NCBI GenBank assembly: GCA_018604165.1
Contig: CP075895.1
Location: 1,635,501-1,699,500, forward strand
Length of the DNA stretch: 64,000 bases
Origin: Chitinophagaceae bacterium LGM1
GTDB lineage: Bacteria > Bacteroidota > Bacteroidia > Chitinophagales > Chitinophagaceae
Direction of reading: 5' to 3'
The notes beneath the pieces were generated by a model that saw only the letters and a program-made list of their open reading frames with translations, was not told the origin of the DNA and made no database searches. Positions 53,259 through 58,320 of the stretch are shown piece after piece. Made by a program: the position numbers and the translations under genes. Positions within the stretch are counted from its first letter, which is position 1. The number at the start of each line of letters is the position of its first letter.

Positions 53259-53363
53259 TTGCTCCCCTGATGCTGCTGCATTACTACTGTGCTGCCAAGC
53301 TTATAGCTTCTATTATTTCTCTTTACTACTGCCTTTGCGTCTTTGCGGTTAGAAAACACTCGC

Positions 53364-53399
53364 GTCATGGCGAAGTATGAAGCCATCTCACGGAATGAG
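53364..53399. repeat. Left copy of a 36-bp inverted repeat
   Basis: Exact reverse complement of 57961-57996. It begins GTCATGGCGAAG and ends CGGAATGAG. Confidence 0.85.
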
Positions 53400-53452: not shown

Positions 53453-53468
53453 GCTAACTATAGTATGT
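53453..53468 (+). promoter_or_regulatory. Candidate C-protein operator O_L
   Basis: GCTAACTATAGTATGT fits the dyad GCnnACTnnAGTnnGC except for the last base, with ACTATAGT as a perfect 8-bp core. Centred about 45 bp upstream of the expected start of transcription, a position suited to activation. The same box occurs at 55397-55412. Confidence 0.55.
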
Positions 53469-53478
53469 GGCATTAGTT

Positions 53479-53494
53479 GCATACTATAAATAGC
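53479..53494 (+). promoter_or_regulatory. Candidate C-protein operator O_R
   Basis: GCATACTATAAATAGC, one intact half-site (GCnnACT) with a degenerate second half, 26 bp from O_L. It overlaps the -7 element, a position suited to repression. Confidence 0.4.
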
Positions 53495-53498
53495 TTTG
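53491..53498 (+). promoter_or_regulatory. -7 element TAGCTTTG for the C-R unit
   Basis: Perfect TAnnTTTG, 8 bp before the ATG at 53507. There is no TTG at -33; the O_L box occupies that side, consistent with an activator-dependent promoter. Confidence 0.5.
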
Positions 53499-53506
53499 AC
53501 AGATTA

Positions 53507-53728
53507 ATGGCTAAAAAAGAAAAAATATTAGTCGCTTTTGGTGATAGAGTAAGAGAATTAAGGAAGTTGAAGAACCTATCACAGGAAGAATTATCATATA
53601 AAGCTGATTTACATCGGACGTATATTGGCATGATTGAAAGGGCTGAAAAGAATATTACGTTACTGAATATTGAAAAGATTGCCAATGCTTTGAAGGTAGA
53701 TGTTAGTGACTTATTAAATGGATTGTAA
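53507..53728 (+). CDS. XRE-family controller (C) protein of a restriction-modification system
   Basis: 73 residues, nearly all helix-turn-helix: FGDRVRELRKLKNLSQEELSYKADLHRTYIGMIERAEKNITLLNIEKI. The RTYIGMIERG/A-like recognition helix and the size match known C proteins. I use the ATG at 53507; the frame opens at a TTG (53477) inside the operator region. The nuclease gene overlaps its end. It should activate its own operon early and repress it, and probably the methyltransferase, later (inference from operator positions). Confidence 0.88.
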   Translation: MAKKEKILVAFGDRVRELRKLKNLSQEELSYKADLHRTYIGMIERAEKNITLLNIEKIANALKVDVSDLLNGL

Positions 53729-54524
53729 AATGACATGGCAAGACAACATACAAGCTTTCTGTTCCCAATATAATATCCCTATTGAACATTTAGCAGATAC
53801 ACTAAAAGAACCTAAGGTCGTTCCAATGATTCGTGGAAAGGCTTTTGAATTTACAGTATTAGAAAGATTGAGGGTAATATTGCCAGAAGATACTTGGACT
53901 GTTCAGAAGGATATCATGAATGCACAATTAGGAACACATGATGAAGATGTAACTATTATGAATAATCTTAGTGAAAGACGTATTAGTGTTGAATGTAAAC
54001 TTGCCGGTAAGGGAAGGTTTAAAAAACTTGCAAATGGAAATTACTATATTAATGTTAAGTGTATGAGGTCTAGAACTTTAGGTGCTGCAATGATTGAAAG
54101 GCTTGCACCACAGCTTGGTATATCAACAGAAGTCTTAGGAATTCATAATGATCAATACCGTTCGACAGATTTTGATTTGGTTGTAACATCAATTGGTAAT
54201 GCGTTTTATGAAACAGATGAGGATGGCTTGTTTATATGGGCTCCTGATGAAGATGGTGAAGAGTTCTTAGGGCTCTTATTAGGTTATCATAATAATAATG
54301 AATTACAGCAATTAGCATTTAATAAAATGTATGTCAATACCTCTGCGAACTTATCTGTAGGCAATGGTATGCAAACTTGTGTTAGGCGAAAATGTACGAA
54401 CCAAAATAACTGTGGTTTTATACCAAATTATCCGCCAATAGTATTTAATGGTGATACCTTGCAACCGATAAATGGTTGGATACCCATAGAAAGTATTCAA
54501 GATTTATTATTAAACATGCTCTAG
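53718..54524 (+). CDS. Putative type II restriction endonuclease (PD-(D/E)xK type)
   Basis: 268 residues, overlapping the end of the C gene by 11 bp; an ATG at 53730, 1 bp after the C stop, is equally good. The likely active site is Asp77 (GTHDEDVTI) and Glu92-Cys-Lys94 (ISVECKL), with a possible helix Glu near 44-49. Late in the protein are four Cys in CVRRKCTNQNNCG and a preceding CVR, perhaps a metal-binding loop. No known restriction enzyme family is recognisable, so the site is unknown; the call rests on the motif plus position between a C protein and a methyltransferase. Converges on the methyltransferase with a 15-bp overlap. Base composition is visibly more AT-rich than the core genes. 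Confidence 0.72.
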   Translation: MDCKMTWQDNIQAFCSQYNIPIEHLADTLKEPKVVPMIRGKAFEFTVLERLRVILPEDTWTVQKDIMNAQLGTHDEDVTIMNNLSERRISVECKLAGKGRFKKLANGNYYINVKCMRSRTLGAAMIERLAPQLGISTEVLGIHNDQYRSTDFDLVVTSIGNAFYETDEDGLFIWAPDEDGEEFLGLLLGYHNNNELQQLAFNKMYVNTSANLSVGNGMQTCVRRKCTNQNNCGFIPNYPPIVFNGDTLQPINGWIPIESIQDLLLNML

Positions 54525-55396: not shown

Positions 55397-55412
55397 GCTA
55401 ACTTTAGTATGC
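55397..55412 (-). promoter_or_regulatory. Candidate C-protein operator at the methyltransferase gene
   Basis: GCTAACTTTAGTATGC (plus-strand reading) is a full match to the dyad GCnnACTnnAGTnnGC and differs from O_L at two of 16 bases. It lies between a TACATTTG promoter element and the ATG, where a bound protein would block transcription. Confidence 0.6.
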
Positions 55413-55438
55413 AATTTAAGCTGTCTGTACTATAATAA

Positions 55439-55446
55439 CAAATGTA
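55439..55446 (-). promoter_or_regulatory. -7 element TACATTTG for the methyltransferase
   Basis: Perfect TAnnTTTG on the minus strand, 53 bp before the ATG at 55385. The same octamer precedes the DUF3987 gene (57906-57913). Confidence 0.45.
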
Positions 55447-55483: not shown

Positions 55484-56416
55484 TTACTTATGATTGTTAT
55501 CCACGATTGTTAATTTCTTTTTCATCATCACCCGCTTCACCAACACCCCAATCCCAGTATCTTTAGCGTGTTTCAGGCATTTATCGTATTGGTCGTTTGT
55601 TTTGTCGTAGGTGTAGGTTGGGTGAAACTGGCTTAGCTCCTGAAACAGCCCCACGCCGTCTTTGCCAAAGTTGGCAGCTATGCAGCACCCCAGCGAAAAC
55701 CAGTTGTTGTACCCCTCTGTTATGTCTTTGCCGCTTGCTACTACCTGTGCCACTATGCGCTGTATGGTAGCGCAGTTGTCGGTTTGTGGGGTGGTGTATG
55801 TTGCGGGTGCAGATGGTGGTGTAAGGTAATGATACAACTTCTCTGCCTGGTGGTTGAAGTAGGCATGGGCATCATAACTATAGCCACGCAGGCTGCATAT
55901 ACTTTTGGGTGCGCCATCTATATATATACCAAAGCGTTGCATGGTGGCGTGCAGGTATTGCCAGTGTTGCAAATGCCTGTGGGGGTAGGCTACCCGCAGC
56001 AGCCCCCAATAGCCCTGCCCGCTGGCACTGAGCCCGCAGTAGGCTATGTTGCGTATGTTGGCAAGTTGTTTTTTCAACTCTCCGTAGTTGGTTATGTGCT
56101 GATTGTCTTTCAGGTCTATATCAAACTGTATAAAGCCACTGTAGTGTTTCAGCCCATCTTCTCGCAGGTGGGTAAACTGTCCGCTTGGGGTGATGGCGGG
56201 CAGCCTTGCTTTCATTTTGTCGCGGGTATATTTATCGGTAATGGTACGCAGTTGCTGTATGGCTGCTGCATACTTGGCACTGGTAAGCCAGCGCAGCAAA
56301 GTAACATTACGGGGTGTATTTTTGGTATAGTAATTTGGTACACAGCTCACGTCTATATTCAGTACGCTTTCCATAGGGTAAAATGTATTGTTCAAAAAGC
56401 GTTCATGAACGTTCAT
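55484..56416 (-). CDS. BT4734-like / PriCT-2 primase-type replication protein
   Basis: Up to 310 residues. The N-terminal BT4734/VirE-N-like domain has LLRWLTSAKYAAAIQQLRTI, DKMKARLPAITPSGQFTHLREDGL and SGFIQFDIDLKDNQ; YCGLSASGQGYWGLLRV follows. A PriCT-2-like domain (about 230-290: GYNNWFSLGCCIAANFG, YDKCLKHAK) ends it. Such proteins pair with DUF3987 proteins in Bacteroidota mobile elements and are thought to prime or initiate replication. The ATG at 56416 lies inside a tandem palindrome; the ATG at 56374 (MESVLNIDV) may be the true start. Confidence 0.82.
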   Translation of the reverse strand: MNVHERFLNNTFYPMESVLNIDVSCVPNYYTKNTPRNVTLLRWLTSAKYAAAIQQLRTITDKYTRDKMKARLPAITPSGQFTHLREDGLKHYSGFIQFDIDLKDNQHITNYGELKKQLANIRNIAYCGLSASGQGYWGLLRVAYPHRHLQHWQYLHATMQRFGIYIDGAPKSICSLRGYSYDAHAYFNHQAEKLYHYLTPPSAPATYTTPQTDNCATIQRIVAQVVASGKDITEGYNNWFSLGCCIAANFGKDGVGLFQELSQFHPTYTYDKTNDQYDKCLKHAKDTGIGVLVKRVMMKKKLTIVDNNHK

Positions 56417-56420
56417 GAAC
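56401..56420. repeat. Tandem palindrome GTTCATGAAC x2 before the primase-like gene
   Basis: Two head-to-tail copies of the perfect 10-bp palindrome GTTCATGAAC, followed by a half-site CCTGAACG. The same arrangement recurs at 57873-57892. Operator or replication iteron. Confidence 0.8.
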
Positions 56421-56434
56421 GCCTGAACGGTTTA

Positions 56435-57832
56435 TTATGCTCTTTTTTCTTTACAGTTTTGCATTATCCATGTAAATACTTTTGAGGTGTAGGTATCACT
56501 GCCAAATATCTTAAAAGCTATTTTACGGTAAGACAACCCCTCGTTATGATAACATGCGCAGCATTGCGCTATCAGTTCCTGTTTATCAAAAGTATTATCA
56601 ACCGCTACGTTGGGGTGCTTCACATTCAGTGGTGTCAGTTGCTGATACACATGCAGGCTATAGTGCAGCAAGTGTTGGGTGATGCGTATGGCATTTTCAT
56701 AATCCGCATCGGTGCAGCTTATATAGTCTGTGCCCGATAGTGTGTTGTATCGCACCATTGTCAGTATCATAGCTATACGGTAGCATATAAGCCCCAACCT
56801 GTTGGCAGTACCTTCCAGCTCGTCGCTTATGTTGTGGTGCAGGTCTATTTTATTTTCTTCAAACAGTTTTCGGAAAGATAGTTGCTGATGCGGGCGTAGC
56901 TTGAATACTACAGGCTCTGTAAGGGCTTCCAGTTTTTTATACAGCGCACAATACTGCTGTGCCTGCATATTAAAAAATGGTTCAAAATCATTTTTATTGT
57001 CATCAAACGGATTGCGAAAATATACCCGTGGCTGCAATCTGTAAAAGCATATACGGCTGAATAAGCCATTGTGTATATCGCGTAGCAAACGCTTCACCTG
57101 GTCTGGTGTGCCGCTTAGTACCATGCTGAGTGCGGGGCGGGCTATCTTTACAAACTCGTTATTTGTTTTTCGGCTATAGCTTATGGGCTCGTGGTGGTAT
57201 GCTTTGCGCAGCACATCGCTGAAGTCGCCAAAATCCTGCCCGAAGATGTCTGCCAGTGTATCGGCTTCGGTTTCAAAAATAATGCCCTTACCACCATTCT
57301 CTTTCAGCATTTGTATAATGGCTGCTTTACTACTGTTGGCAGGTATATACAACTTCATGTTGCGGGCAGCATCGGGTGGGGTAGGTGGCTCTTGCAGCTT
57401 GCCTTTATCAAAAAGTTTCACCTGCCTGTTGTATAACATCTGTCGGGTGTGGTGGTCTTTGGCTTCCTGCTGTGTTTTTTCTTCCAGATAGGTTTCTACG
57501 GCTTCGCCCAGCGCACGTGCCCATAGCAGCGCACCCTTGCCCGTACCATATTTACCTACTATAAAGCAGTAGAGGTTGGCAGCTACACGGCGGCTATCAT
57601 ACATAGCCTCTACATTGGGCAGCATACCGCTGATAACACCCAATGCACCTATCAGAAACAACTCTCTTTCTTCTGCCTCGGCAAATTTGTAACAGGCTTC
57701 GCGCAGCAGGGGTGGCAGGCTTTCAAAAATATCATCGGTAAAGGGTGCAAAATCCTGCATGGTAGATGGTGGCGCGGGCGGATTGTTCATGTCATAACCC
57801 TCGGGGATGTGTACGTGTTTCTTTTCAGTCAT
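56435..57832 (-). CDS. DUF3987 P-loop protein (mobile-element helicase/primase partner)
   Basis: 465 residues. P-loop IVGKYGTGKGALL (Gly93-Gly100) near the front, then the DUF3987 core with LYIPANSSKAAIIQML, GIIFETEADTLADIFGQDFGDF, FVKIARPALSMVLSGTP and GLFSRICFY. The C-terminus (LSYRKIAFKIFGSDTYTSKVF) is a short winged-helix-like segment. It stands in the usual order just upstream of the BT4734-like gene, 18 bp apart or 60 bp if the later start is used. Expected to act in replication of an integrated element. Confidence 0.85.
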   Translation of the reverse strand: MTEKKHVHIPEGYDMNNPPAPPSTMQDFAPFTDDIFESLPPLLREACYKFAEAEERELFLIGALGVISGMLPNVEAMYDSRRVAANLYCFIVGKYGTGKGALLWARALGEAVETYLEEKTQQEAKDHHTRQMLYNRQVKLFDKGKLQEPPTPPDAARNMKLYIPANSSKAAIIQMLKENGGKGIIFETEADTLADIFGQDFGDFSDVLRKAYHHEPISYSRKTNNEFVKIARPALSMVLSGTPDQVKRLLRDIHNGLFSRICFYRLQPRVYFRNPFDDNKNDFEPFFNMQAQQYCALYKKLEALTEPVVFKLRPHQQLSFRKLFEENKIDLHHNISDELEGTANRLGLICYRIAMILTMVRYNTLSGTDYISCTDADYENAIRITQHLLHYSLHVYQQLTPLNVKHPNVAVDNTFDKQELIAQCCACYHNEGLSYRKIAFKIFGSDTYTSKVFTWIMQNCKEKRA

Positions 57833-57872
57833 GATGTTTGTGTGTGGTTTTTGCGTTTTAAAAGTGTTCGGC

Positions 57873-57892
57873 GTTCATGAACGTTCATGAAC
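57873..57892. repeat. Tandem palindrome GTTCATGAAC x2 before the DUF3987 gene
   Basis: Identical 20 bp to 56401-56420, also preceded by GC and followed, with one extra base, by CCTGAACG. It lies between the promoter element at 57906-57913 and the ATG at 57832, the place for a repressor site. Confidence 0.8.
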
Positions 57893-57905
57893 ACCCTGAA
57901 CGATA

Positions 57906-57960: not shown

Positions 57961-57996
57961 CTCATTCCGTGAGATGGCTTCATACTTCGCCATGAC
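57961..57996. repeat. Right copy of the 36-bp inverted repeat
   Basis: Exact reverse complement of 53364-53399. It overlaps the start of the 162-bp repeat array; its first 13 bases (CTCATTCCGTGAG) form a small hairpin. Confidence 0.85.
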
Positions 57997-58320
57997 TGGA
58001 GTCAAGCCGAATAGTATTCGTCATTTCGACCATCGGGAGAAATCTCTTGAAAGATAGCTGTGTAGCTTTTTTGTTCTGTAGTACTAAAGCTCAGGAGATA
58101 CCTCACTGCGTTCGGTATGACGGCGTTGATGTGAGATGGCTTCATACTTCGCCATGACTGGAGTCAAGCCGAATAGTATTCGTCATTTCGACCATCGGGA
58201 GAAATCTCTTGAAAGATAGCTGTGTAGCTTTTTTGTTCTGTAGTACTAAAGCTCAGGAGATACCTCACTGCGTTCGGTATGACGGTGTTGATGTGAGATG
58301 GCTTCGTTCCTCGCCATGAC
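57971..58320. repeat. 162-bp tandem repeat, two full copies and a diverged partial third
   Basis: Copy 1 is 57971-58132 and copy 2 is 58133-58294; I find a single difference (C to T near the end). A third start at 58295-58320 matches for 11 bases, then diverges and stops. Each unit carries two imperfect inverted arms of 27 nt (58020-58046 and 58095-58121 in copy 1), so each can fold into a long hairpin. No ORF crosses it. Confidence 0.9.

Follow-up and report, generated by a model that had tools for sequence, protein, structure and literature searches.

A probable C protein-controlled type II restriction-modification cassette with three predicted operators of one type, the proximal one overlapping a Bacteroidota-type -7 element

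We analyzed a 64-kb stretch of the 3.3-Mb genome of Chitinophagaceae bacterium LGM1 (hereafter the window; all coordinates are positions within it). Judged from sequence, the segment 53453-55442 is a compact C/R/M cassette, that is, a type II restriction-modification (R-M) system under the control of a C protein. A small XRE gene (C) lies directly before the endonuclease gene (R), the methyltransferase gene (M) lies alongside, and palindromic C boxes precede C and overlap its promoter. The features are as follows.

53453..53468, + strand: OL, distal operator, reading GCTAACTATAGTATGT, with 1 mismatch to GCnnACTnnAGTnnGC; proposed activating site
53479..53494, + strand: OR, proximal operator, reading GCATACTATAAATAGC, with 2 mismatches to GCnnACTnnAGTnnGC; proposed repressing site
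53491..53498, + strand: -7 element TAGCTTTG of the C-R promoter, an exact TAnnTTTG
53507..53728, + strand: C gene, 73-aa XRE controller protein, with a predicted leader of about 4 nt
53730..54524, + strand: R gene, 264-aa type II restriction endonuclease, PADLOC family PDLC03516
54510..55385, - strand: M gene, D12-class adenine methyltransferase, convergent with R
55397..55412, - strand: OM, perfect dyad directly upstream of M, on the predicted M start; proposed repressing site
55412..55419, - strand: -7 element TTAAATTG of the M promoter, weak, with 4/6 consensus bases
55439..55442, - strand: -33 element TTTG of the M promoter, 19 bp before the -7 element

The 73-residue XRE protein had been taken for a controller protein in a first-pass annotation of this DNA, and this assignment was borne out by matches to PADLOC control proteins (E 2.9e-24) and to solved controller proteins, among which C.AhdI was the top match (E 1.5e-14). 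R matched the PADLOC REase_II family PDLC03516 (E 9.9e-84); it had no Pfam or NCBIfam family above cut-off and no solved relative (best E 0.65). A single base separates the C stop from the R start, the two genes being arranged head to tail, and an in-frame ATG at 53718 offers an alternative R start. The 3' ends of R and M overlap by 15 bp. All three frames are intact and of full length compared with their homologues.

The R-M cassette and two further genes, a BT4734-like/PriCT primase (55487-56416) and a DUF3987 gene (56438-57832), are bracketed by a 42-nt inverted repeat (95%; 53358-53399 and 57961-58002), and the bracketed R-M cassette, primase and DUF3987 gene are possibly one mobile unit. 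Two tandem 162-bp repeats at 57969-58292 are 99% alike and share a 29-nt motif with the 42-nt inverted repeat. On both sides of the DUF3987 gene lies a self-complementary 25-nt repeat (96%; 56399-56423 and 57871-57895), its two copies each lying where a minus-strand gene begins; it is perhaps the site of another regulator.

The strong distal dyad and the weaker copy over the -7 element had both been noticed in the first-pass annotation, and both proved real; the third copy before M, a perfect one, was absent from it. In a site model constructed from the boxes of nine relatives, with the window's own boxes left out, OL (20.8), OM (19.0) and OR (14.8) ranked first, second and third in the 64 kb, and the next site scored 11.3. 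A search of the whole genome for GCWWACTWWAGTWWGC with at most one mismatch found two sites only, OM and OL (backward-read control, 0), and the looser exact pattern GCNNACTNNAGTNNGC found OM and one unrelated site (control, 1). A repeat finder paired OL with OM (19 nt, 95%) and, in inverted orientation, OL with OR (18 nt, 83%). C is preceded by two copies of one operator type and M by a single copy, and the strong form of this operator occurs at no other place in the genome. A loose dyad with up to 2 mismatches occurred 19 times in the 64-kb window against 23 expected, which is not above chance, and we discarded this dyad as a statistical criterion.

All three boxes overlap or abut core promoter elements. 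The -7 element begins 30 bp downstream of the OL centre, the OL-OR distance is 26 bp from centre to centre, and OR overlaps the -7 element TAGCTTTG by 4 bases. If the first base of a TAnnTTTG or TATA-type element is taken to lie at about -12, the centre of OL falls near -42.5, a position common among activators that contact RNA polymerase. Predicted transcription starts lie near 53503 (+) for C-R and near 55407 (-) for M. Compared with the -7/-33 promoter consensus reported for Bacteroides (PMC7366714), the C-R promoter has an exact -7 element and no TTTG at the -33 place, and the M promoter, TTTG-N19-TTAAATTG followed by OM, has an exact -33 element and a -7 element with 4/6 matches. Comparison with about 100 related loci supports the C gene, the strong distal and weaker proximal boxes and the Bacteroidota-type -7 element proposed at first pass. 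Only ∼3.7% of Bacteroides leaders are given as shorter than 10 nt (PMC7366714), so that the predicted 4-nt C leader would be unusual there; leaderless C transcripts are described as common in C-controlled systems (PMC4824078). A different -7 candidate for M, TAGCATTTG, lies downstream of OM; we discarded it, since the exact TAnnTTTG of relatives runs up to and includes the first OM base (20/22 exact occurrences in the stretch scanned, among the loci listed).

Relatives were collected in two ways. A protein search detected C-like matches at E ≤1e-8 in 62 of 395 genomes of the phylum, own genome included, and 29 loci among the matches listed, own genome left out, were examined. Here, OL, matching the consensus at 14 or 15 of 16 positions, was present in all nine loci with a full-length C of at least 60% identity, and six of the nine had an exact TAnnTTTG at +30 relative to the OL centre. 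OL was absent for a 41-residue C fragment at 68% and in 19 of 19 loci with a C below 60% identity, three of which had a single 13-of-16 site elsewhere (all among the 29 loci listed). Independently of protein similarity, the exact operator pattern ATGCTAAYTWTAGTMTGTNG was found at no fewer than 116 loci, i.e., at least 116, in genome_contigs. Among the 116 listed, 101 had a C homologue (44–77%) downstream on the same strand, with an alignment-estimated C start 43–78 bp after the box start in 100 loci and 260 bp in one, and 15 had none, some of these stretches ending too soon. In viral_contigs, C accompanied the pattern in 2 of 23 loci and was lacking in 21. Since five of the nine protein-found loci recurred in the pattern set and four lay outside it, the two sets are partly independent.

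Within 196 relatives of the window's genome, the pattern occurred in six genomes, own included (backward control, 0), and the 14 other members of the genus all lacked it; C lay downstream in four of the five other pattern-bearing relatives. The M gene was detected in 1 of 59 relatives searched, which was the own genome. Both the pattern and M being rare among relatives, the cassette is sporadic in its genus. One locus (L197, G425) has OL, OR and the -7 element intact, with no C homologue following in the stretch examined. A single-sequence search for R relatives found none in genome_contigs, viral_contigs or phages; they came instead from the family search, plasmids and the operator pattern. 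In G255 (L051, 3361-5261), homologous C (42%), R (31%) and M (58%) genes are present in the same order with no such box before C, so that the operator goes with the C protein and not with the R-M type. R and M homologues also occur on Acinetobacter plasmids (L002-L004) and in G283 (L005, L052), where the stretches examined contain no C-like frame; in L002, L004 and G283, a small frame of another HTH-like kind (SISDFAKYKGTSRQTVYNNL) is divergent from M, and in G283 the M gene is broken into two frames.

We aligned on the OL centre 102 of the 103 C-bearing loci listed (61 Bacteroidota, 37 other or unassigned, 2 Balneolota/Ignavibacteriota and 2 viral; L147, with its 260-bp distance, was left out). 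TAnnTTTG started at +30 in 45/61 Bacteroidota versus 3/37 others, and TATA[AC]T started at +30 in 18/37 others and was outside the eight commonest offsets in the 61 Bacteroidota; the common denominator, TA...T at +30, was shared by 58/61 Bacteroidota and 32/37 others (all among the loci listed). The free base of TGTNG was T or G in 52 of the 61 Bacteroidota and A in 29 of the 37 others listed. In the relatives, OL thus lies at a constant distance from the core promoter, whichever element forms it. Three loci, from a Giovannonibacterium (L095), a Deltaproteobacterium (L122) and a Zixibacterium (L126), had R (49–53%), M (62–68%) and C (58–63%) together, with the same OL and a TATA-type element at +30 in each, so that the same cassette is seen in both fittings. 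A quick tree of 97 C proteins required 2 changes between promoter classes (shuffled mean 14.6; 0/500 as low); with 3 of 94 inner branches starred and 31 rows belonging to neither class, it fixes neither the number nor the direction of refits.

The second operator was more variable in position. By a simple consensus count (a first site model was dropped for this purpose as too sharp), a further box with 13/16 matches was found at +26 in 31/61 Bacteroidota and at +45 to +47 in 42/61 of the loci listed, compared with a background rate of 0.0005–0.0006 per position. Both positions were occupied in 22 listed Bacteroidota loci and +26 alone, as in the window, in 9; ten had a box at none of the four counted offsets. 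Because the +26 box is absent at this threshold from 30/61 Bacteroidota and +45 to +47 is commoner, OR at +26 represents one of two layouts. Of the 37 others listed, 12 had a 13/16 box at +15 and 10 had one at +36/+37, and at 12/16 the +15 box was found in 25/37 others versus 1/61 Bacteroidota. The +15 position fits the canonical C-box spacer of ∼4 bp, at which dimers on opposite sides of the helix are described as touching (PMC4321490). OR at +26 is 11 bp, or about one helical turn, further downstream, and with 26 bp between OL and OR instead of ∼15 bp the customary contact between dimers should not be taken for granted. We infer that direct dimer-dimer contact is lost at +26; if so, the cooperativity of the switch must arise differently.

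On the METHYLTRANSFERASE side, 43 of the 112 loci listed (9 from genome stretches and 103 with C from pattern scans) had a box with at least 15/16 matches in front of a reading frame of 150 aa or longer, a number that is neither a species count nor a full count, since L042 and L071 are the same DNA and many stretches may end before M. A crude methyltransferase motif was present in 40 of these 43 frames, both the adenine/N4 and the C5 kinds being represented. We read the M promoters of 36 of the 43 and of the window (L042-L046, L049 and L089 were left out). Among 28 listed Bacteroidota M promoters, 26 matched TAnnTTTG at 5 or 6 of 6 bases in an element whose final base is also the first of OM, so that one of the six matches, the closing G shared with the box, is built in; TTG was located 18–21 bp upstream in 16 of the 28. 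In other phyla, six named loci had 2–4 of 6 matches and one Balneolota locus had 6.

The strong-distal, weak-proximal layout of C.AhdI and C.Esp1396I, to which the first-pass annotation had likened this region, is present, but the spacing is 26 bp and not ∼15 bp, and the third operator at the M promoter makes Esp1396I the closest model rather than AhdI. Like the window, Esp1396I combines a small XRE C protein with two operators before C-R and a separate one before M (here OM, 55397-55412), and its C protein is reported to bind OL, OR and OM with very different affinities, OR being the weakest (PMC3758141). It differs in that the box described here keeps the ACTATAGT-like core with ATGC/GCAT-like flanks replacing GAC/GTC, and in the 26-bp OL-OR distance and the Bacteroidota-type promoter. 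AhdI and PvuII share the joint, autoregulated C and R, and C.AhdI is the best solved match; however, their canonical GACTTATAGTC boxes with a ∼4-bp spacer (PMC4321490) have no such pair here. Given these flanks and the 26-bp distance, the present system would work like PvuII/AhdI but is not filed among them. Csp231I and EcoO109I (motif 8) likewise have spacers, of 18 and 25 bp, that are too long for side-by-side dimers; in the account given in PMC4321490, that class has CTAAGN5CTTAG sites and a C-terminal extension of C, giving a 98-aa protein, whereas the C protein here has 73 aa and an ACT/AGT core in its boxes. Within Bacteroidota, NsoJS138I of Niabella soli is also a C-controlled R-M system, but its C is fused to the endonuclease, its boxes were assigned by comparison with PvuII, and its promoter was annotated with -35/-10 hexamers and tested in E. 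coli, where activation was 23-fold (PMC3850674). The accessible portions of the open-licence literature on C boxes and controller proteins in Bacteroidota and Flavobacterium did not describe the present layout. The OL/OR/OM box may already be a motif of the main survey (Sorokin et al. 2009).

We consider it probable, at roughly 80%, that the locus is a three-operator, C-controlled R-M switch which delays and then caps the nuclease, with OR covering a Bacteroidota -7 element. In a cell that has newly received the cassette, M would be made first, from its own promoter with a -33 TTTG, while the C-R promoter, which has no such TTTG, would be weak. As C accumulates, its dimers would fill OL near -42.5 and recruit RNA polymerase, and C and R would be switched on together. 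At higher C levels, C-R would be turned off by dimers that occupy OR and mask the -7 element, and M would be lowered by dimers bound at OM, where M transcription is predicted to start. The net outcome would be a nuclease that is delayed and later capped. Weighing against this reading are the weak -7 element of M, the 30/61 listed Bacteroidota that have no 13/16 box at +26, and the pattern loci that lack a C homologue (15 of the 116 listed in genome_contigs, 21 of 23 in viral_contigs, and L197).

C might instead act purely as a repressor of a C-R promoter that is active without it: a dimer on OL would block the -33 region, one on OR would block the -7 region, and one on OM would obstruct the M start. 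Many XRE autoregulators are pure repressors, all three boxes overlap or adjoin the core elements in a manner suited to this, and the fixed OL distance would equally fit a site that merely blocks the -33 region. We nevertheless regard it as improbable: TTTG is found at -33 in the M promoter and not in the C-R promoter, and OL is exactly 30 bp from two different core elements, as contact with RNA polymerase predicts. Activation by a C protein of this phylum's R-M systems also has a precedent in the 23-fold effect of the Niabella soli C-endonuclease fusion on its promoter in E. coli (PMC3850674).

A decayed or silent R-M system, its boxes surviving as relics, appears very unlikely. The weak -7 element of M in the window and the confinement of M to the own genome among the 59 relatives searched would agree with decay, and R-M activity is here deduced from sequence; but the three frames are intact and full-length, with homologues at 49–53% (R) and 62–68% (M) identity, and the strong boxes are near perfect. 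Chance matches are hardly credible. The loose dyad is indeed as common as in shuffled sequence, but the site-model ranking in the window, the two strong sites genome-wide, OL in 9/9 loci with C at 60% or more, the C homologue beside the pattern in 101 among the 116 loci listed and the empty backward-pattern control in 196 relatives all argue against them, and the co-occurrence of box and C across phyla nearly excludes them.

Returning to the activator-repressor switch, the best reading of its geometry is that, compared with relatives having TATA-type promoters, the distance from OL to the core promoter has been kept and OR is placed 11 bp further downstream, over the Bacteroidota -7 element. 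The operator steps, among the loci listed, would then be +15 and +36/+37 in other phyla and +26 and +45 to +47 in Bacteroidota. We lean, by a small margin over even odds, towards a more general view in which one C-protein family has been fitted to two core-promoter classes, with 30 bp between OL and the core held fixed and the repressing operators shifted by about one turn. R-M genes cross between distant bacteria, and unless their timing suits a new RNA polymerase at once, the host will be cut. A division that holds across two promoter classes is suggested by this locus and its relatives: the spacing from activator site to core promoter would be the fixed part, and the repressing sites the movable part. 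If true, this would provide a simple and testable rule for the adaptation of a transferred regulatory switch, and would also offer self-timing promoters for Bacteroidota.
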